Positions 55,372-64,000 of a DNA stretch of 64,000 nucleotides are shown in pieces (the stretch's first letter is position 1; each line of letters begins with the position of its first letter). The DNA comes from Iphinoe sp. HA4291-MV1 (GTDB lineage: Bacteria > Cyanobacteriota > Cyanobacteriia > Cyanobacteriales > Nostocaceae). Where the stretch lies: positions 95,288-159,287 of the forward strand of contig JAHHHH010000005.1 of the NCBI GenBank assembly GCA_019359415.1. Reading direction: 5' to 3'. The position numbers and the translations under genes are program-made. Below the pieces are notes generated by a model. The model searched no databases, was not told the origin of the DNA, and was given only the letters and a program-made list of their open reading frames with translations.

Positions 55372-56073
55372 ATGGCAACTTCTTTGCAGTCTTTATTTAG
55401 AGCGATCGCTCAGGCTCGTGACGAACAAGAGCTACGACAGCATGTCATAGTTAAAGTTGGTGAGTACTTTGTCGCCCAACGATGGGGACTTTTTTTCTTT
55501 GATAAACTTCCCTCGCTTGCTCCCAATCTTCCAAGCATCCTAAAATTAGCTTTATCTGTAGAACACAATCCGGTTTTGCGCTACTTGGTTGAGCAACATG
55601 CCCCAGTCCATGAAGAATTGCTGTTACCTCCTGGGGCATGGAAGATAATTTGCCCGCGTTCGGATCATGGGCATGTGATGGCTGGACCGATTGTCGGCAA
55701 TGGTCATCTTGTCGGTGGAGTTGGCTTTACCCGCGTTCGAGGTACTCCTGCTTTTAATGGTCGGGATCTGGCTGATCTGAGTGCCCTCTGCCTTCATCTA
55801 TCCACTTGGCTCGCAAAGATACAGTTGCAACCGACAGGATTCAATTCTCCGAATATTAACCGTTTAACGCCGCGTGAAATTCAAATTGCCGAACTGGTGG
55901 CACAAGGGCTAACAAGTGCTGAAATCGGTTCAGCCCTTTGGATTACAGAAAATTCTGTTAAGCAAGCCCTAAAACGGATGTTCCGAAAGCTTGAAGTTTC
56001 GTCTCGTGCTGAACTAGTAGGGCGGCTTTTCTCAAGCACAAGGCTTTCCTCATCCAAGGAACAGGCGGTTTAA
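55372..56073 (+). CDS. LuxR-family transcriptional regulator
   Basis: 233 residues. The N-terminal ~150 residues form a GAF-like sensory domain (ELRQHVIVKVGEYFVAQRWG). The C-terminal helix-turn-helix is complete: LTPREIQIAELVAQGLTSAE, IGSALWITENSVKQALKRMF, RKLEVSSRAELV. No receiver Asp is present, so it senses a ligand rather than being a response regulator. Its promoter is shared with the divergent sulfurtransferase, a likely target. Confidence 0.88.
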   Translation: MATSLQSLFRAIAQARDEQELRQHVIVKVGEYFVAQRWGLFFFDKLPSLAPNLPSILKLALSVEHNPVLRYLVEQHAPVHEELLLPPGAWKIICPRSDHGHVMAGPIVGNGHLVGGVGFTRVRGTPAFNGRDLADLSALCLHLSTWLAKIQLQPTGFNSPNINRLTPREIQIAELVAQGLTSAEIGSALWITENSVKQALKRMFRKLEVSSRAELVGRLFSSTRLSSSKEQAV

Positions 56074-56307
56074 ATGCCCAAGAATTAGCAATCTTTGTCT
56101 ACTGAAGCATTTGTAAAATATGTAGTATTTCATATGAGTGTAATTACTCAACCCCAGTATCCAGAGAAAGCTTGCAAGGGCGATCGCTCCATTCCTCCCT
56201 TGACAAATAAATTTTTGTAACAATCAACAGCAGTTTGTGTAAAAGTCGCGCTTTCTAGCTGAGAAATATAGAGTGCAACGGGCGTGCGATGACATTCGAG
56301 GTCTTTT

Positions 56308-56940
56308 ATGACTAACGACTCGAGAAAACAGCTAGATGTACAGCTTAAAGAATTAGCGCTCCTTGCTCAACGACACCCACAAGCAACTAAGGAGCGACGG
56401 ATGGCTTTAACACAGCTTCTCAATACCATTTGGCTGTCGGGAAAACTTTGTCGCCCATATAGTGGTCAATTTCAACTACTTTATGAAGATATTTATGAAG
56501 AAGCAGTACAAAGTCTATTCTTTTATATTTGTCGAGATGACAATATTAGCAAATATGACTCAGAACGGGGCGAAGTTATAACTTGGGTGAATATGCTACT
56601 CACTAAACGCTTTTTTCCAGAGGCTATACCTGTAATTGTAGGACAAGAAAATGAAATAAGTTTAGACAAGTCTCATATAGAAAATATTTCATCTTCTGAA
56701 TCTATATCTTTGTATGAACAAATCATTCAATTTATAGAAGATGACCCAGAAAGAATTTTTATCAAAGAACATATAAAAGGTCATCCAGAAGCAAATTTTC
56801 AAGCAATAGCGAGAAGAAGGTATTCTGGAGTTTCCTGGAAAGACATTTCAGCAGAATGGAAAATTGGAATATCATCATTACATAATTTTTTTCAACGATG
56901 TGTGAAAAAATTTGCTCCGACATTAAGAGAATATTTGTAG
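56308..56940 (+). CDS. Sigma-70-like factor of the CHAT-CHASE2 cluster
   Basis: 210 residues. The middle (YEDIYEEAVQSLFFYICRDD, SKYDSERGEVITWVNMLLTK) resembles sigma region 2. The C-terminal part (RRRYSGVSWKDISAEWKIGI, SSLHNFFQRCVKKFAPTLRE) resembles the region 4 helix-turn-helix. It has no region 1 or 3. Genes of this type commonly precede DUF1822 and CHASE2 genes in cyanobacteria. It begins the cluster at 56308, 34 bp upstream of DUF1822. Whether it truly directs RNA polymerase is not known. Confidence 0.7.
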   Translation: MTNDSRKQLDVQLKELALLAQRHPQATKERRMALTQLLNTIWLSGKLCRPYSGQFQLLYEDIYEEAVQSLFFYICRDDNISKYDSERGEVITWVNMLLTKRFFPEAIPVIVGQENEISLDKSHIENISSSESISLYEQIIQFIEDDPERIFIKEHIKGHPEANFQAIARRRYSGVSWKDISAEWKIGISSLHNFFQRCVKKFAPTLREYL

Positions 56941-56974
56941 ATTTCATATGAGTTAACCGGGTGGTCAAAAAATT

Positions 56975-57937
56975 ATGAGCAACCAAACACGTTTTCTAAC
57001 ATTTTCAGGACCGATATCTCCAGATGCAAGACGGCGAGCAGAACAGTTGTGTAGACAACAAGCCACGCCGGAAAAAGGCGAACAAGTTCGTCTCAATACT
57101 TTATCTGTATCTTTTGTGAATTCATATCTACAATGCATGGGGTTCGAGACAGACTTAGAAGCGAGTGAGAGTTGGAACCCACTGCAGCATCTACTTATGG
57201 ACGTAGCTGATTTGTCGCTAAAAAATTTAGGCTCCTTAGAATGTCGTCCGGTGTTGTCAGGAGAACAGTTTGTCTATGTGCCACCCGAAGCACAGTCAAA
57301 CCGAATTGGCTATGTGGCTGTGCAGATTAGTCAATCATTTCGAGAGGCAAAGTTGCTGGGGTTTGTCAAGGAAGTATCAAATGATGTATTATCAATCAGT
57401 CAACTATATTCTTTAGAAGATTTACTGGATGATTTAGAATATCTCACTCAATTAAATACAGCCAAATTAGCTGATGATTCGCTCACAATCAATAATAATT
57501 TGGTGAAATTAACGCAATGGTTTGAGAATATTTTTGATGCAGGCTGGCAAGAAATTGAAGCTCTCTTACGCACTCAACCAACCTATGTAGCTAGTAGCCT
57601 TAGAAGTGCTAAGGGCGATTTAGTTAGCAGGAGCAAGTTGATTGATTTGGAAAAACATTTGACCCAGCAAGCGGTCGTTCTAGTCGTTAGTCTCACTCCA
57701 AACAATGAGCAGGAAATGGACATTATTGTGGAAGTACATCCCACAAGCGAAGAAAATTATTTGCCACCAAATCTCCATTTGATATTGTTGGATTGTGATG
57801 GAGCATCTGTCATGGAAGCTCAAACTAGAAGCACTAATAAGAATATTCAATTGCAGTTTAGTGGTGAAGTGGGAGAACGTTTCAGTGTTAAACTTGCTCT
57901 GGAGGATGTCAGCACTATAGAAAATTTTGTCATCTGA
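56975..57937 (+). CDS. DUF1822 family protein
   Basis: 320 residues, soluble. Family signs: RLNTLSVSFVNSYLQCMGFE, DVADLSLKNLGSLECRPVLS and NRIGYVAVQISQSFREAKLL GF. The C-terminal third is beta-rich and may be an immunoglobulin-like or ligand-binding domain. Function is unknown. It sits between the sigma-like gene and the CHAT-CHASE2 gene, in the place an anti-sigma factor or protease substrate might occupy; that is inference. The next gene starts 22 bp after its stop. Confidence 0.88.
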   Translation: MSNQTRFLTFSGPISPDARRRAEQLCRQQATPEKGEQVRLNTLSVSFVNSYLQCMGFETDLEASESWNPLQHLLMDVADLSLKNLGSLECRPVLSGEQFVYVPPEAQSNRIGYVAVQISQSFREAKLLGFVKEVSNDVLSISQLYSLEDLLDDLEYLTQLNTAKLADDSLTINNNLVKLTQWFENIFDAGWQEIEALLRTQPTYVASSLRSAKGDLVSRSKLIDLEKHLTQQAVVLVVSLTPNNEQEMDIIVEVHPTSEENYLPPNLHLILLDCDGASVMEAQTRSTNKNIQLQFSGEVGERFSVKLALEDVSTIENFVI

Positions 57938-57959
57938 AGCGAATACAGGAGTTCTGCCA

Positions 57960-60317
57960 ATGAGAAAGTTAGTTGTCCTGAAGCTAGATGGCGATTTAGA
58001 GGTGGGGGTGCGGGTGACGCTGGAGATTGGGGAAGAGGGCTTTCGCCCCAGTACAGAAATCTCTGGACAACTACCTCCGAATTCAGACATGATAACAGCA
58101 ATTGACCAGTGGCGGTCAAACTATTGCAGTCTGGGGAATGCCCGCATCAAAGCCAAAAAAATTGTTTACGATGGTTCCATTAGCCAGTGGCGCTCCGATT
58201 GCCAAAACTCAGCTAAAGAGTTGCGTAAGCACCTGAATAACTGGTTGCTGGCAGAGTCTTTTCGTCCTGTGCGGGAAAAATGGCTCAAACACTTAATGCC
58301 AGAGGACGAAGTGCGGGTGTTGATTCGCACTCCTTGTTTGCAGCTCAAGAAACTTCCTTGGCATTTGTGGGATTTGGTGGATCAGGATTATCGCAAAGCT
58401 GAAGTCGCTCTAAGTGTTCTAGAATCAGAACCAGTGGCACCTGCATCGCAGACATCTGCCCAGAGAAAGAAAATTAGAATTTTAGCGATTTTGGGCGATA
58501 GTGACGGTATTGATGTGAAGCAAGACCGCCAGTTACTAGAAAAATTACCAGGTGTCGTTACAACTTTTTTGGTGCAGCCCCAACGTTCAGACATCAACGA
58601 CGAGTTGTGGAAACAACCCTGGAATATCTTATTTTTCGCTGGTCATAGCAAAAGCGAGGGTGACACTGGTTGTATCTATATTAATGAGACAGATAGCTTA
58701 ACAATTGCCGAACTCAGGTATGCCCTGAGAAATGCTGTTGCCAACGGGTTGCAATTAGCAATTTTCAACTCCTGTGATGGATTGGGATTAGCAAAAGAAC
58801 TACAAGATTTGCAGATTCCGCAAATTATTGTCATGCGGGAGCCAGTGCCAGACTTAGTGGCTCAACAATTTTTAAAGTATTTTCTGGAGGCTTTTTCCTC
58901 AGGAGCGTCTATATATGCTGCCCTTCGCACCGCCAGAGAAAGGCTCGAAGGAATAGAAAAGGAATATCCAGGTGCTACTTGGTTACCAGTCATTTGCGAA
59001 CACCCTACTGTAGTGTCGATGATTTGGTCAAAGCCCCAATGGTTTTTAAATACTCGCCGCCTGGGAAGCTTGCTACTTTTGAGCATGTTGGTAACTGCTG
59101 GTGTACTAGGGATAAGATACGAAGGAGGATTGCAAACATGGGAATTGCTCTCTTATGACAGACTTATGCGATCGCCCTTGGCGGCTCCTGAAGGAGCATC
59201 GCGTCCACAGGAAAAGCAAGATTCGCGCCTGTTGATAGTCACTGTCAGCGAAGATGATTTGAAACTAAAAGAACAGCAACAAGGAAAAGGGTCGCTCTCA
59301 AATATAGCACTAGCCCAACTTCTGGAAAAACTTGCACCCCTCCAACCAAGAGCTATTGGCTTGGATATCTATCATGATGAGCCATTACAACCCAAGCAAG
59401 CTTCTTTAGCGACTCGGTTGAAAACTGATGACAAATTCTTTGCGATTTGTAAAGTGAGCGATCGCACTAAAAATCATCCAGGAACTCCACCTCCACAGGA
59501 GGTTCCGCCAGAACGTCAAGGATTTAGTGATGTTGTCCCAGACTCAGACGGCATTGTGCGTCGTCATCTATTGGCAATGCAACCAGCAGATCCAACATCC
59601 CCTTGTACTGCACGCTACGCCCTTAATGCCCAACTGGCATTCCATTACTTGGAGAAGGAGGGTATTTATCCCAAGTATACTCCCAGAGGGGATTTGCAGT
59701 TAGGCAAAGTTGTTTTGAAGCGATTGCAGTCTCATATGGGCGGCTATCAACAAGTAGATACAGGGGGTTATCAAATATTGCTCAATTACCGCTCTAACCT
59801 TGGTTCTCCTTTAGAAATTGCCCCAACAGTCACGCTCACAGATGTTCTTAGGGGTAAGGTTAACCCTGAACAAGTCAAAGACCGAATTGTCCTTATTGGT
59901 ACCACTGCCCCAAGCTTCCGTGATTATAGTCTTACCCCCTACATAACTGAGCAGGGTTTTTCCCAGGAAATACCAGGAGTCATTCTGCAAGCACAGATGG
60001 TGAGTCAAATCATAAGTGCAGTGAAAGATGGACGACCTTTATTATTAATTTTACCTGTTTGGGGCGAAGTGTTATGGATTTGGGGTTGGTCTTTTGTTGG
60101 AGGAGCAATTGCTTGGCGTTATCAGTCGGGACGACATCTCATACTAGCAGGTGGAGGCGCAATCGGCGTTTTATACATTCTTTGCTTAATTCTGTTTTGC
60201 TCTGGTATTTGGGTTCCCCTGGTTCCGTCAGCTTTAGTTTTAGTAGTTACTGGCGGTACAGTGGCGGTTTACTTTACTTCACAACACAGTCAGCGACAAC
60301 TAATTTCTACAACTTGA
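57960..60317 (+). CDS. CHAT protease-CHASE2 membrane sensor
   Basis: 785 residues from the ATG at 57960, with AGGAG 8 nt upstream; a TTG at 57927 is less likely. After a ~160-residue N-terminal domain, a CHAT (caspase-like) domain has His229 in NILFFAGHSKSE and Cys272 in AIFNSCDGLGLAKEL. A membrane helix lies near 370-390 (SLLLLSMLVTAGVLGI), then an extracytoplasmic CHASE2 domain (QTWELLSYDRLM, AIGLDIYHDEP, VVPDSDGIVRRH), and two or three C-terminal helices. A small repeat (LAAPEGASRPQ) separates the helix from CHASE2. An outside-in signalling protease is inferred. Confidence 0.9.
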   Translation: MRKLVVLKLDGDLEVGVRVTLEIGEEGFRPSTEISGQLPPNSDMITAIDQWRSNYCSLGNARIKAKKIVYDGSISQWRSDCQNSAKELRKHLNNWLLAESFRPVREKWLKHLMPEDEVRVLIRTPCLQLKKLPWHLWDLVDQDYRKAEVALSVLESEPVAPASQTSAQRKKIRILAILGDSDGIDVKQDRQLLEKLPGVVTTFLVQPQRSDINDELWKQPWNILFFAGHSKSEGDTGCIYINETDSLTIAELRYALRNAVANGLQLAIFNSCDGLGLAKELQDLQIPQIIVMREPVPDLVAQQFLKYFLEAFSSGASIYAALRTARERLEGIEKEYPGATWLPVICEHPTVVSMIWSKPQWFLNTRRLGSLLLLSMLVTAGVLGIRYEGGLQTWELLSYDRLMRSPLAAPEGASRPQEKQDSRLLIVTVSEDDLKLKEQQQGKGSLSNIALAQLLEKLAPLQPRAIGLDIYHDEPLQPKQASLATRLKTDDKFFAICKVSDRTKNHPGTPPPQEVPPERQGFSDVVPDSDGIVRRHLLAMQPADPTSPCTARYALNAQLAFHYLEKEGIYPKYTPRGDLQLGKVVLKRLQSHMGGYQQVDTGGYQILLNYRSNLGSPLEIAPTVTLTDVLRGKVNPEQVKDRIVLIGTTAPSFRDYSLTPYITEQGFSQEIPGVILQAQMVSQIISAVKDGRPLLLILPVWGEVLWIWGWSFVGGAIAWRYQSGRHLILAGGGAIGVLYILCLILFCSGIWVPLVPSALVLVVTGGTVAVYFTSQHSQRQLISTT

Positions 60318-60330
60318 GGCATAAATAAAG

Positions 60331-61128
60331 ATGAAATTATCTGTGCAAAAGATTCAACTCTCCCTCGCCATCAGTTTTTTAACACTTATCAATTTAACAC
60401 TCTTTAGCTGTACACAAGTGCAGGCACAGCTTAGAAACCCCAAGGGACAATTAAACCAATCATTGATTTTCGCTGCGCCGCCCCCACCACCAGACATCGG
60501 GGAACCAGGTAAGCGAGCGGAAGCAGGTAGCCGTGGTTGTGGAGGAGACGTGAATAAGTCTCTGACTTCTGTTTCTCAAAAGCGGCTCACAGCCTTAGTC
60601 CCTGTTTATTCAAAGTCAGAATTAGTGTTTGCAACAACGATTGCCGAGCATCCTAGTTTCTGGTTCTATGTTCCTTATTCCTCGTCCTTTGCGTATGGAG
60701 AATTTGTGCTAGAAGATGAAGCACAAAATCAGAATATATACAAAGTTGCTTTGACGGGGACACCAGGAGTGATTAGCCTGAGCTTGCCATCAAAAGCAGC
60801 ACCTCTGGAGATTGGCAAGAGGTATCGTTGGTATTTTAACATCTACTGTCAGAAGGATAATCAAATTATTGCTGATGTTGAAGGGTATGTAAAACGGGAG
60901 CAACTGAACTCTGCCCTGAAAACTCAATTAGAAAAAGCGACACCTAGTCAGCGCGTAGCCCTTTATGGAACTAATGGAATTTGGTATGAGGCGCTGAGCG
61001 CTGCTAGTACACTGCGTCGTACTAATGGGCAAGGGACTTCTTGGGCGGCGCTGTTGCAATCTGTTGGTTTGAATGATTTTGCAACTGAATCAAAAGTGGA
61101 GTGCTGCAACCTAGAGAGTCAGCAGTGA
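60331..61128 (+). CDS. DUF928 secreted protein
   Basis: 265 residues. A signal peptide (LAISFLTLINLTLF) ends near VQAQ; a Cys just before it (FSC) makes a lipoprotein conceivable but atypical. The mature protein has LTALVPVYSKSELVFATTIA, FWFYVPYSSSFAYGEFVLED and ALYGTNGIWYEALSAASTLR, the DUF928 pattern. Function unknown. It follows the CHAT-CHASE2 gene by 13 bp and so belongs to the same operon. Confidence 0.9.
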   Translation: MKLSVQKIQLSLAISFLTLINLTLFSCTQVQAQLRNPKGQLNQSLIFAAPPPPPDIGEPGKRAEAGSRGCGGDVNKSLTSVSQKRLTALVPVYSKSELVFATTIAEHPSFWFYVPYSSSFAYGEFVLEDEAQNQNIYKVALTGTPGVISLSLPSKAAPLEIGKRYRWYFNIYCQKDNQIIADVEGYVKREQLNSALKTQLEKATPSQRVALYGTNGIWYEALSAASTLRRTNGQGTSWAALLQSVGLNDFATESKVECCNLESQQ

Positions 61129-61137
61129 AGTTCAATG

Positions 61138-63897
61138 CTAACTCGCTGTGCAACCTGGCTGGGTAAACCAAGGACTATGGGGCGTGGTGGTGGGAGAATT
61201 TGCTACGAGGACGACTTGCCCTTTTTCGTTTATTATCCAATCAGTAGCTTCTACAATGCGTTCTGGTACGGCGGTAGTTGTTTTGCTGGTAAAATTTGGA
61301 CTCTTGCGGTTATCACTGCTGGGATTGACTGTTATCAAATCTACTTGAACTGCATCAGTGTTGAGGGCTTCACCTGGGTTAGGGGGTAAGCCGCCGCGTC
61401 CAGTGATTGTAAATTGGCTCTTTGTGATAGAGCTACCCGCAGAGCAGCTTTGTGCTACTTGGGTATCAACTGGTACTGATGGCAAGTTGATTAAGGCGCT
61501 GTTGAGGTCAATATCGGGTGTGTTGATTTGCACGGTACCACTTAACTCCGGACTTCCCCCAGTGGCGGTGATGTCACTTGTTCTATCAGATGCCACATCT
61601 CGGAACTGTGTACCAAAGATACCAGTAGCATTGATTCGCACATTTCCGCCACGAAAGTTAGCAGAATTGGCGCTGATGTCACTATTTTTGAAAGCAACGA
61701 GGAAATCGGTGTCAATATTGATGTTGCCGCCGATGACGTTTTCTCCTGTTGCTTCAGTTTTGATGTTGCTATTGCGGCTCATTATTAAATTTTGTGAGTT
61801 AATGTTAATTGTCGCCTGTTCCCTATTCGGGTCAACTTTAGCGCTGCGTGTATTGGCGGTGAGTAAGGCATTGTTGTTTAAACGGATAGAGCGAGCATTT
61901 ACTGTCATGTTGCCTGCGGTTCCTGTTCCGAGACTCTGCACGGTTACTGCAGCCCCATCTCGCACTAGCAAGGTATTAGTTTTGATCGTTAAATCTCCCG
62001 CATCCCCTGTTGAATTTGGCTGTGCAGAAGCTAACAAGCCACTGACAAACTGAGGATCAGCACTTGTACCAATCAGTTGCACATCCTGGGCATTAACTTT
62101 CAAATTCCCTCCTTTGCCTGCACCAAATGTATTAGTACCCACCTGTGCCCCATCCCGCACTAGCAAGGTATTAGTTCTGACCGTAAGATCTCCCGCATCC
62201 CCTGTTGAATTTGGCTGTGCAGAAGCAGCCAACTTACTGCCAACCCGATTATCAGCGCTTTTACCAATGATTTGCACATCTTGGGCATCAACCCTCAAAT
62301 TTCCCCCTTTGCCTGTACCAAATGTAATAGTACTCACCTGTGCCCCATCCCGCACTAGCAAGGTATTAGTTCTGATCGTCAAATCTCCCGCATCCCCTGT
62401 TGAGTTTCGCCCTGCAGAAGCAGCCAACTGACTGCCAACCCGATTATCAGCACTTGTACCAATCAGTTGCACATTTTGGGCATCAACCCTCAAATTTCCC
62501 CCTTTGCCTGCACCAAATGTACCGACACTGATAAATGCCCCATTCTGAATCAGTAATTCGCCAGTTTTAATTGTTAAGTCCCCCGCATCCCCGGTTGCAC
62601 CTCGGTCAGCTTGGCTACTCAAGCTGCTGGCAGACCGACGGTTAGCAGATTCACCAATCAACTGCACTTTGTCTGCTGTGACAGTCAAGTCTCCCGCCTT
62701 GCCATTACCAAATGTGGCAGTACCGACCTGTGCCCCATTCTGAATCAGCAATTCACCAGTATTAATCGTCAAGTCTCCCGCCTTGCCATTACCAAATGTG
62801 ACAGTACCAATCCGTGCCTCATCCTGAGTCAGCAATTTTGCAGTGTTAATCGTTAAGTCTCCCGCATTCCCGGTTGCGCCTGGGTAAGCGAAAGTAGCCA
62901 AGCTGCTAGCAATAGGAAGCTGACCATAGGTGGAGATACCAATTACCTCTATCAACTCAGTAGCGTTCACAACCATTGCTCCTCCAGGCTCTGCCAAGAG
63001 AGTACTTGCCTCTATCGTAGAACCATTGCTCAAGGTGACTCTCCTACCTACCACCTGTATATCACCGCCACCAGCACCACTGGCATCGACTGCCGCCTGT
63101 TGCGATAGTTGAATGTTCCCAAAGTTTTGCACGCCATCATAGCTTAAGGCAAAACCTTTATTTATGGGGGTGAGGCTGACTAGACCGTTTTCCGCCACAC
63201 TGCCCAATTCTATCCGTCCCCCGGCAGTTTTCAGCGTTGCCCCTTCTAAGCTGACATCACCACCAACCATTGCTAAGGTTTGATTCGGTTGCACCCGCAG
63301 CCCAGATGTAGTATCAATCAGTTCGGTTGTTGTTCTGATTCCTTGACCATCGCCCTGCACCTGAATCGAACCAGGATTTGCCCCGTATTGCAAGCCAATA
63401 GGAACACTGATAGTCAACAGAGATCTAGATTGAGGATTGGTAGCACTAAACTCGAAACCATCCGCAAACTTCAGACTACTCGCCGTACTGCCAACAAACG
63501 AACCACCAATATCCAACCGCGCATTTTGACCAAATATAATCCCGTTTGGATTTATCAGAAACAAGTTTGCAGTGCCGTTAGCACGAATCAACCCATTAAT
63601 CTCAGAGATAGACTTACCCGTTACTCTGCTAATTATGTTTTGAATATCAAGAGCATTATTAAATAAAGCAGCGCCGTTGGTGGGAACAGAGAAATCCCTA
63701 AAGCTGTGGAACAAATTACCACCGGCTTGCGTTCCTCCAGTAATAGTGCTGGTGTTACCCTCTGTTTGGACATTGGAATTATTAGGCAAAGTGCCATCTG
63801 GGGTAACTTGAGCGTGAGCACAATTTGCACTCCAAATGCTTGCACCACCTATCACAATCACTAAGAAAGCGCCCCAACGAGTCATCATCTCGGACAT
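61138..63897 (-). CDS. Filamentous-hemagglutinin N-terminal domain protein (TpsA-like)
   Basis: 919 residues from the ATG at 63897. A signal peptide is followed by the TPS secretion domain: GTQAGGNLFHSFRDFSVPTN, FLINPNGIIFGQNARLDIGG. The body is beta-helical with tandem units of about 65 residues (195 bp) between roughly 61950 and 62600 (TGDAGDLTIKTNTLLVRDGA, GKGGNLRVDAQDVQLIG). Such proteins are exported by a TpsB pore and act as adhesins or surface proteins. No TpsB gene is in the window. It is convergent with the DUF928 gene, 9 bp apart. Confidence 0.92.
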   Translation of the reverse strand: MSEMMTRWGAFLVIVIGGASIWSANCAHAQVTPDGTLPNNSNVQTEGNTSTITGGTQAGGNLFHSFRDFSVPTNGAALFNNALDIQNIISRVTGKSISEINGLIRANGTANLFLINPNGIIFGQNARLDIGGSFVGSTASSLKFADGFEFSATNPQSRSLLTISVPIGLQYGANPGSIQVQGDGQGIRTTTELIDTTSGLRVQPNQTLAMVGGDVSLEGATLKTAGGRIELGSVAENGLVSLTPINKGFALSYDGVQNFGNIQLSQQAAVDASGAGGGDIQVVGRRVTLSNGSTIEASTLLAEPGGAMVVNATELIEVIGISTYGQLPIASSLATFAYPGATGNAGDLTINTAKLLTQDEARIGTVTFGNGKAGDLTINTGELLIQNGAQVGTATFGNGKAGDLTVTADKVQLIGESANRRSASSLSSQADRGATGDAGDLTIKTGELLIQNGAFISVGTFGAGKGGNLRVDAQNVQLIGTSADNRVGSQLAASAGRNSTGDAGDLTIRTNTLLVRDGAQVSTITFGTGKGGNLRVDAQDVQIIGKSADNRVGSKLAASAQPNSTGDAGDLTVRTNTLLVRDGAQVGTNTFGAGKGGNLKVNAQDVQLIGTSADPQFVSGLLASAQPNSTGDAGDLTIKTNTLLVRDGAAVTVQSLGTGTAGNMTVNARSIRLNNNALLTANTRSAKVDPNREQATININSQNLIMSRNSNIKTEATGENVIGGNINIDTDFLVAFKNSDISANSANFRGGNVRINATGIFGTQFRDVASDRTSDITATGGSPELSGTVQINTPDIDLNSALINLPSVPVDTQVAQSCSAGSSITKSQFTITGRGGLPPNPGEALNTDAVQVDLITVNPSSDNRKSPNFTSKTTTAVPERIVEATDWIINEKGQVVLVANSPTTTPHSPWFTQPGCTAS
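61950..62600. repeat. 195-bp in-frame tandem repeats in the TpsA-like gene
   Basis: The marker gcactagcaaggtatta recurs at 61962, 62157 and 62352, exactly 195 bp apart, and a diverged unit follows near 62547. Period divides by three, giving 65-residue beta-helix units. Such arrays can expand or shrink by recombination. Confidence 0.85.
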
Positions 63898-64000
63898 TGC
63901 ATCCCCCAAAGGAAACAGCAGTTGCGGAACTTTGGTTATGTCACACCACAAATGTGGGTTTAGTGATGGTCAAAGTCTCCTCTGCCCAATTCTCAGTTTC

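Follow-up and report, generated by a model that had tools for sequence, protein, structure and literature searches.

In the sigmaE-RseA system an ECF sigma factor is freed by proteolysis of its inhibitor RseA, which spans the membrane and is attacked by several proteases in turn. This regulated proteolysis has been named alongside CASP, in which CASP-sigma is bound and inhibited by Csx30, a protein that the TPR-CHAT protease Csx29 cuts (PMC10028731). EACC2-caspase genes lying beside genes for an ECF sigma factor and a DUF1822 protein have also been described already (Kaur et al., 2021; PMC8195603). Bacterial caspase-like proteins have mostly been discussed as death or defence proteins.

The window analysed here, a stretch of 64,000 nucleotides, carries such a gene set close to one end:

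56213..56244, + strand: predicted ECF-like operon promoter (block common to orthologous upstreams)
56308..56940, + strand: ECF-type sigma factor, 210 aa, sigma2 and sigma4 regions (profile matches, Foldseek)
56975..57937, + strand: DUF1822 protein, 320 aa (PF08852, E=3.3e-73)
57960..60317, + strand: protein with EACC2-type N-terminus, CHAT, TM and CHASE2 (Pfam)
60331..61128, + strand: DUF928 protein, predicted secreted (PF06051, E=8.7e-52; hydropathy)
61138..63897, - strand: TPS-domain filamentous hemagglutinin (PF05860, E=1.1e-73)
63898..64000, - strand: TPS gene leader (likeness to the paralogue on contig C96)

The first-pass annotation had described the first four genes as packed together and facing a hemagglutinin, and both descriptions hold: gaps from the sigma gene through the TPS gene are 34, 22, 13 and 9 bp, the first three separating the four genes at 56308-61128, and the TPS gene lies tail to tail with the DUF928 end of the operon. 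The gene set itself is already published; the promoter, the adhesin link, the DUF1822 fold, the tie of DUF928 to CHASE2, the protease swaps and the movement of a cassette are new. We tentatively favour, at a little below even confidence, an operon for transmembrane signalling through a protease and a sigma factor, with cell-surface adhesins under its control. CHASE2, together with secreted DUF928, would sense a state outside the cytoplasm, and the signal would pass through the membrane to CHAT on the inner side. This protease would then act on DUF1822, which would hold the ECF sigma factor, and the freed sigma would transcribe both the operon that encodes it and genes for TPS hemagglutinins via a TGTAAM-N12-TTTGYRTAAAA promoter.

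Proteins of the operon

In Pfam and NCBIfam the sigma-like protein stays below every curated cut-off, its best sigma match being NCBIfam ECF SigK (E=7.6e-4). A profile built from 57 sequences, the window's own among them, found the solved ECF sigma factors RpoE (1.5e-4), SigK (0.0038) and SigH (0.0045), the last over profile positions 62-207. In Foldseek the top 14 matches to its structural model all came from sigma factor or sigma-RNA polymerase entries, with a best E of 0.027, a TM-score to the model of about 0.3 and none at E<=0.001. By profile and modelled fold the protein is of ECF type, and RNA polymerase binding and transcription start are its predicted activities.

The AF2 model of DUF1822 (pLDDT 91.5, pTM 0.62) has an alpha/beta N-terminal domain followed by a beta-sandwich at residues 217-320 with Ig-like structure matches. 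As modelled, DUF1822 is thus an alpha/beta plus Ig-like protein, and the TPR fold by which Kaur et al. describe it is absent; this amends their description of DUF1822 and has no bearing on whether the window system belongs with theirs. Hydropathy predicts no transmembrane segment, and sequence and fold comparisons gave no recognisable anti-sigma fold. Comparison with Csx30 yielded no sequence match among solved chains, and the structures compared with DUF1822 were matched mostly over its C-terminal domain. That DUF1822 restrains the sigma factor, and that CHAT may cut it, is proposed by analogy with the precedents of Csx30/Csx29 and HetF/PatU3.

CHAT (E=3.4e-15) and CHASE2 (E=7.2e-64, at about 59097-60104) occur in a single protein with transmembrane segments at residues 367-385 and 727-745. 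Its start was set at ATG 57960, where a Met also stands in 4/4 orthologues inspected, and from there the codons of His229 and Cys272 fall at 58644 and 58773. This dyad, visible to the first-pass annotation, proved near-invariant: His229 is kept in 64/64 and Cys272 in 63/64 (one gap) of one aligned set, and in 79/80 and 80/80 of a second, the window being included in each. The C-termini of the caspase proteins vary (CHASE2, AAA_35, nSTAND1-WD40). The window system therefore carries the EACC2-caspase trait of a kept dyad with a variable C-terminus, together with that of a neighbouring ECF sigma factor and DUF1822; the EACC2 label for the N-terminus is borrowed from Kaur et al. on gene neighbourhood and layout, without an EACC2 domain model.

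DUF928 begins with a hydrophobic stretch ending in LFSC and is predicted to be secreted, as a lipoprotein when judged by eye. It lies at most two genes from CHAT-CHASE2 in 27/34 cases, whereas CHAT lacking CHASE2 has it that close in 0/29 (Fisher 1e-11), and so accompanies CHASE2, not CHAT as such. When contig C17 is compared with the window, CHASE2 is 92% and DUF928 99% identical, as against merely 46% for CHAT; by these identities, a CHASE2-DUF928 cassette has recently moved from one paralogue to another.

Gene neighbourhoods across cyanobacteria

The phylum sample comprised 99 foreign DUF1822 regions and one from the same genome (L092), the best of a longer list, with DUF1822 ORFs of at least 180 aa counted. 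Among the matches listed, the gene directly upstream of DUF1822 encodes a sigma-like protein (47) or a 'big' HTH regulator (45) in 92/101 ORFs, which is beyond chance, and the pairing of regulator and DUF1822 is found in 7/7 regions of the window's own genome. In the named sample, no sigma gene was found upstream of 24/84 DUF1822 genes, including 2 that lie where a contig ends, and two further sigma copies of the own genome, on contigs C121 and C99, have no adjoining DUF1822. These cases, like the pairs without a protease described next, tell partly against the reading in which CHAT cuts a DUF1822 restraint.

These neighbourhoods bear on a fairly unlikely alternative, namely that the circuit is the same and its substrate is another: CHAT would cut itself or some other protein, and DUF1822 would assist the sigma factor, as a positive adaptor or as a chaperone. 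Autopeptidase activation has been proposed for EACC2-caspase systems (Kaur et al., 2021; PMC8195603), and many regulator-DUF1822 pairs have no protease beside them. Among the matches listed in the phylum sample, the two genes that follow, taken on the strand of the pair, matched none of five protease models in 9/46 sigma-DUF1822 pairs whose downstream side could be read and in 20/45 'big'-DUF1822 pairs. A few pairs carry, in place of CHAT, a trypsin-like protein whose start resembles a signal peptide; the CHAT slot can, on this gene order, be filled by other proteases, and an exported protein of this kind would have no access to cytosolic DUF1822. Against this alternative stand the sigma-inhibitor-CHAT logic demonstrated in CASP (PMC10028731) and the cleavage by HetF of PatU3, which limits HetZ (PMC12288457). 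DUF1822-CHAT also shows the second strongest partial correlation in co-divergence (0.45; 45/54 operons, with partial correlations from 839/990 pairs), a pattern which follows gene order and could be linkage.

The promoter block and the adhesin genes

The block at 56213-56244 reads TTTTGTAACAAT-N8-GTTTGTGTAAAA, with a -35-like TGTAAC at 56216-56221 and a -10-like TTTGTGTAAAA at 56234-56244. It is present with 0-2 mismatches in 17/17 aligned upstreams (the window and 16 orthologous regions) between flanks that cannot be aligned, and is the window's single match when 3 mismatches are allowed, with 0 in 100 shuffles. It is predicted to be an ECF-like promoter and a candidate for autoregulation. 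A DUF928 paralogue not linked to the operon (L257) also has this promoter, with 2 mismatches. After short or duplicate upstreams of sigma paralogues had been dropped, 115 were kept, 21 of them from the window's own clade; among the other 94, related promoters score above the 99th control percentile in 13 (p 1e-11 if independent, which related sequences are not). Upstream of 'big' regulator operons the motif exceeded that percentile in 0/47. Across 146 genomes the long motif gave 32 matches, of which 30 were followed up and 7, including the TPS match L261, had 3 mismatches; the reversed pattern gave 5 in all, so single matches at 3 mismatches mean little.

A short pattern drawn from such promoters matches the window's own genome 12 times (reversed control, 0), and 5/12 matches stand no more than 160 nt before a TPS hemagglutinin gene, in a genome with 22 TPS matches. 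When only new matches are counted, leaving out 4 known when the pattern was made, 4/8 precede TPS genes (expected, 0.002). A regular expression found 6/35 TPS genes with full upstream against 1/1094 other genes (Fisher 4e-9), an enrichment that is partly circular since the expression was written after some of its sites were known. Some promoter-bearing TPS genes are paralogues with shared DNA.

The -10 letters of the TPS genes follow the type of sigma operon. At locus L304, which repeats the window arrangement, the sigma and TPS promoters both end in TTTGTGTAAAACTC. TPS genes carry GCATAAA in 3/3 cases at loci with a GCATAAA-type sigma operon, and GTGTAAA or GCGTAAA in 7/7 cases near a window-type operon (Fisher 0.008, several of the genes being related and not independent). 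The window's own TPS gene starts at ATG 63897, TTG 63951 being likewise open, and its leader is identical at 99/103 letters to that of the TPS paralogue on contig C96, where a promoter ends 11 nt upstream of the matching stretch. The window's contig ends before the corresponding position, so that its TPS promoter is off contig; by the C96 paralogue, TTTGTGTAAAA would be expected to end 11 nt past base 64000. Because of the shared promoter class, the hemagglutinin facing the operon probably belongs to the circuit.

The block might instead be the site of another regulator or sigma factor, with the ECF sigma working elsewhere, which we consider improbable. The pattern does occur before genes without an obvious tie to the cluster (NRPS-like, DAHP synthase and a small ORF that is followed by a P450 gene), and 8 of 14 pattern regions in other genomes have neither sigma nor TPS next to them. 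Against another regulator, the block is found before the sigma operons of several paralogue groups, each group having -10 letters of its own, these letters are matched at the TPS genes as described, and the layout AAC-N16-TGT/CGT is that of ECF promoters. We presume that this sigma factor reads the promoter.

The first-pass annotation had left the choice between signalling and defence. The former stands: the module recurs, its sigma factor is of ECF type and its caspase dyad is conserved. A defence or programmed-cell-death module, in which infection would be the trigger and the sigma factor one arm of the response, is very improbable. CHAT and TPR-CHAT proteases do occur in CRISPR type III-E (PMC10028731), and Kaur et al. 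treat related caspase systems as conflict biology (PMC8195603). However, at E 0.01 the five window proteins matched 0 families of PADLOC-DB 2.0, and the promoter-pattern sites of the own genome lie mostly before sigma operons and hemagglutinins. A WD40-repeat paralogue (L034), the one further protein searched, matched one PADLOC model, HEAT-ARM_XIII, within its repeat region.

A sensor-protease and a sigma factor in one operon, with matching promoters at adhesin genes, suggest that a protease works a switch of the cell surface, and not that the system is an antiviral defence. A promoter-defined adhesin regulon would give a large, duplicated caspase family an everyday function. The fullest version of this idea, possible if rather doubtful, is that DUF1822 is a new cytosolic anti-sigma family and CHAT-CHASE2 a new transmembrane transducer, in which a caspase-like protease reads the outside and frees an ECF sigma factor by cutting its inhibitor, several such circuits per genome, set apart by their -10 letters, choosing surface hemagglutinins. 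The promoter letters and His229/Cys272 are the sites that make the idea directly testable.

Comparison with known systems

The EACC2-caspase systems resemble the window in their constant N-terminus and caspase, their variable C-terminus, CHASE2 included, and their neighbouring ECF sigma factor and DUF1822; they differ as described in that DUF1822 is called a TPR protein and that autopeptidase activation is proposed (PMC8195603). In the section devoted to them, Kaur et al. mention neither a promoter nor a TPS regulon nor any link to DUF928, and trypsin-like domains appear there as fusions only (PMC8195603). CASP/Craspase likewise places a third protein between a CHAT protease and a sigma factor and has sigma motifs within the locus itself, but its TPR-CHAT protease is soluble and activated by Cas7-11 and RNA (PMC10028731), as against the membrane CHAT-CHASE2, DUF1822 and proposed adhesin targets of the window system. 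In HetF-PatU3-HetZ of Anabaena, a membrane CHAT protease cleaves the negative regulator of a transcriptional activator, PatU3 and HetZ being likened here by description; HetF is CHAT-TM-TPR (PMC12288457, PMC8406250), and the window protease has CHASE2 in place of TPR. The window protease was rejected as HetF itself, scoring 23.7 bits with NF045509 against a cut-off of 1200, and the HetF orthologue of the genome (L306) gave no CHASE2 match.

With sigmaE-RseA the proposed circuit would share release of an ECF sigma factor by inhibitor proteolysis, and differs in that DUF1822 has no predicted transmembrane segment. In P. aeruginosa, an ECF cell-surface signalling circuit reportedly controls a TPS system. 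That circuit also answers an outside signal, but its receptor is TonB-dependent and its anti-sigma factor lies in the membrane, and the opening of the abstract describing it names neither CHAT nor CHASE2 (PMC2729926). On the signalling reading favoured here, CASP and HetF would become two cases of a wider CHAT-inhibitor-regulator logic.

The operon and its recurrent partners

The window ends where its contig ends, and the locus under study occupies its last part:

56308-56940, +, sigma-like gene
56975-57937, +, DUF1822 gene
57960-60317, +, CHAT-CHASE2 gene
60331-61128, +, DUF928 gene
61138-63897, -, TPS-domain hemagglutinin gene, tail to tail with the operon

The first-pass annotation had described this gene set and order, four consecutive genes with a hemagglutinin opposite, and both are borne out. 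A LuxR-type regulator gene (55372-56073, same strand) lies directly upstream, outside the conserved set. The nearest named relatives of DUF1822 are from Scytonema sp. NIES-4073 (90%) and Scytonema hyalinum (89%), followed by Nostoc (69%), which makes a Nostocales cyanobacterium the probable source of the window. The sigma/DUF1822/caspase-CHASE2 module is already known and not new, since Kaur et al. (2021; PMC8195603) report EACC2-caspase genes with CHASE2 C-termini, adjoined by ECF sigma and DUF1822 genes. For the promoter, the adhesin regulon, the DUF928-CHASE2 linkage, protease replacement, the sensor-cassette swap and the DUF1822 fold, no earlier description was found in the excerpts of the literature searched.

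The sigma-like protein reaches the cut-off of no curated family in Pfam or NCBIfam. Its 57-sequence profile matches RpoE (E 1.5e-4), SigK and SigH, and the first 14 Foldseek matches of its AF2 model (pLDDT 90.7, pTM 0.56) are sigma factor or RNA polymerase plus sigma entries, the best having E 0.027, probability 0.98 and a TM-score of about 0.3. A paralogue on contig C121 shows Pfam sigma regions 2 and 4, both below cut-off. We treat the protein as an ECF-type sigma factor. Two sigma genes elsewhere (L030:5001-5942, 313 aa; L031:1615-2571, 318 aa) carry an extra partial sigma-like stretch at the N-terminus, and one in a same-genus genome (L303:387-1349, -) is joined in frame to the latter half of CHAT, apparently as the result of a deletion.

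In the phylum sample, 47 of the 101 DUF1822 ORFs among the matches listed lie directly behind a sigma gene and 45 directly behind a larger regulator with a sigma4-like HTH; the rest have a sigma gene no more than four genes away (4), another neighbour (4) or an edge (1). The genome's own regions hold seven DUF1822 genes, five directly behind sigma and two behind the larger regulator; a further match inside a very long ORF (C86, L092) is tallied in the phylum sample. A second, named sample, selected with A3, has 84 DUF1822 genes (48 directly behind sigma, 12 with one close by, 22 other, 2 edge); 77 of them have a CHAT gene of the conserved type at most two genes away. DUF928 follows CHAT-CHASE2 in 27/34 cases among the matches listed in the phylum sample and 64/69 in the named sample; with CHAT lacking CHASE2 it was found in 0/29 and 0/2, respectively. 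Of the proposed four-gene co-occurrence, the linkage of regulator and DUF1822 is recurrent, and DUF928 is tied to CHASE2.

Predicted promoter and regulon

Upstream of the sigma gene, the window and 16 orthologous loci share a single block, TTTTGTAACAAT-N8-GTTTGTGTAAAA (17/17; no mismatch in 12, one in 3, two in 2); upstream of it the DNA cannot be aligned. Its AAC-TGT distance is 16 bp, the same as in the ECF promoter layout. At up to three mismatches the genome has two matches (control 0), one before this operon and one before an unlinked DUF928 paralogue, with 64 nt from block end to conserved ATG at the paralogue versus 63 nt in the sigma operon. That orphan paralogue (L257:1567-2376, contig C99) is internally shortened and has a long glycine-rich tail. 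Across 146 family genomes the block occurs in 26, with 32 matches (reversed pattern 5). Among the 30 loci tallied for neighbours, it precedes sigma at 17 (one gene shortened, one continuing into CHAT), DUF928 at 2 (L257, L267), CHAT-CHASE2 at 1 (L274), TPS at 1 (L261, three mismatches) and none of these at 9. A matrix from the block sites places 13/94 other sigma upstreams above the 99th percentile of the controls (1090 genes; p 1e-11 only if upstream sequences count as independent), and a related block is present in 8/14 TPS upstream regions, hand-picked for alignment.

The wider pattern TGTAAM-N11..15-TTTGYRTAAAA matches 47 times across 14 genomes (2 for the reversed pattern) and 12 times in this genome (reversed 0), the spacer being exactly N12 in 11/12.

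Genes downstream of the pattern sites in this genome, by contig
C133, C89: sigma operons
C79, C89 (twice), C96, C130: TPS genes, within 160 nt
C61 (L340:6790-7032): two small peptides whose leader looks GG-type by eye, then a TPS gene
C79: AMP-binding/condensation NRPS-like protein
C89: DAHP synthase, then aromatic amino acid lyase
C130: small ORFs ahead of a P450 gene
C112: 504-aa ORF, N13 spacing, perhaps a chance match

The genome has 22 TPS matches. Four of the 12 sites were known before the pattern was written; of the eight new ones, four are no more than 160 nt from the start of a TPS gene against 0.002 expected, a comparison to be taken with caution since some of these TPS regions duplicate one another. 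The C61 peptides, the first of 80 aa, look bacteriocin-like by eye. The window contig stops just short of the TPS promoter position; the C96 TPS is 65% identical to that of the window and their leaders share 99/103 letters. In other genomes, the nearest downstream gene at 14 pattern-site regions is sigma at two (L352, L355), TPS at two (L346, L351), some other gene with TPS behind it at two (L349, L356) and neither at eight.

The -10 letters fall into two sets, GTGTAAAA at C133 and C96 and GCATAAAA at C89, C61, C79 and C130, with GCGTAAAA at C112. Since the GCATAAAA-type promoter precedes the NRPS-like, DAHP synthase and P450 loci, the C89 sigma may control secondary metabolism as well. Similar leaders with this promoter stand ahead of the NRPS-like, DAHP synthase and small ORF/P450 genes at L341, L345 and L032.

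Sensor and protease sides

Because DUF928 accompanies CHASE2 and not CHAT without CHASE2, it may be read as belonging to the sensor side, with DUF1822 and sigma on the protease side. On contig C88, DUF928 adjoins a CHASE2 protein whose own chain carries no CHAT, although a separate CHAT ORF lies on the other side of that protein; on C27, Pfam finds a CHAT domain in the CHASE2 protein that the window CHAT query missed. At C17 (L036, 8962-12124), CHASE2 shares 92% and DUF928 99% identity with the window's copies, but CHAT only 46% and DUF1822 36% (over 181 residues), and the regulator is of the larger kind, which points to recent exchange of a CHASE2-DUF928 sensor cassette.

Across 45 operons that contain the complete set of five parts, the identity matrices (839 distant pairs) give partial rank correlations of DUF1822 with sigma (0.35), CHAT (0.45), CHASE2 (0.31) and DUF928 (0.01); CHAT-CHASE2 gives 0.25, CHASE2-DUF928 0.46 and CHAT-DUF928 0.09, and sigma gives 0.02, -0.02 and -0.10 with its non-neighbours CHAT, CHASE2 and DUF928. 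This agrees with the proposed signal chain but tracks gene order too, so that linkage alone could account for it.

The predicted catalytic residues are conserved in orthologues, His229 in 64/64 and Cys272 in 63/64 aligned rows, and 79/80 and 80/80 in a second set, although the C-termini differ (CHASE2, AAA_35, nSTAND1-WD40). Where sigma-DUF1822 pairs occur at other loci, the protease that follows is of the TPR-CHAT, Peptidase_C14 caspase or trypsin-like type. Among the matches listed in the phylum sample, 46 pairs with a readable downstream side have CHAT-CHASE2 (17), another CHAT (11), TPR-CHAT (5), C14 (1), trypsin (3) or no recognised protease (9). The trypsin-like proteins (L118, L120, L121) begin with a putative signal peptide, judged by eye, which argues against one common mechanism in which the adjoining protease cuts cytosolic DUF1822.

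Proposed mechanism and known systems

Collectively these results support a sigma circuit that governs surface hemagglutinins and takes its input from the transmembrane CHASE2-CHAT protein. We consider the sigma-adhesin regulon, taken apart from any release step, quite probable; the whole mechanism, release included, is tentative, at slightly under an even chance. In that mechanism DUF1822 would hold the sigma factor and CHAT would cut DUF1822, as suggested by the CASP and HetF-PatU3 precedents. HetF itself, above its curated cut-off, is absent from this assembly (95% complete) and present in four relatives (G162, G130, G119, G140); in Anabaena, HetF is reported to cleave PatU3 (PMC12288457). 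In CASP, CASP-sigma is bound and kept inactive by Csx30, which a CHAT protease cleaves (PMC10028731), and the TPR-CHAT proteins of some sigma-DUF1822 loci have the architecture of Csx29.
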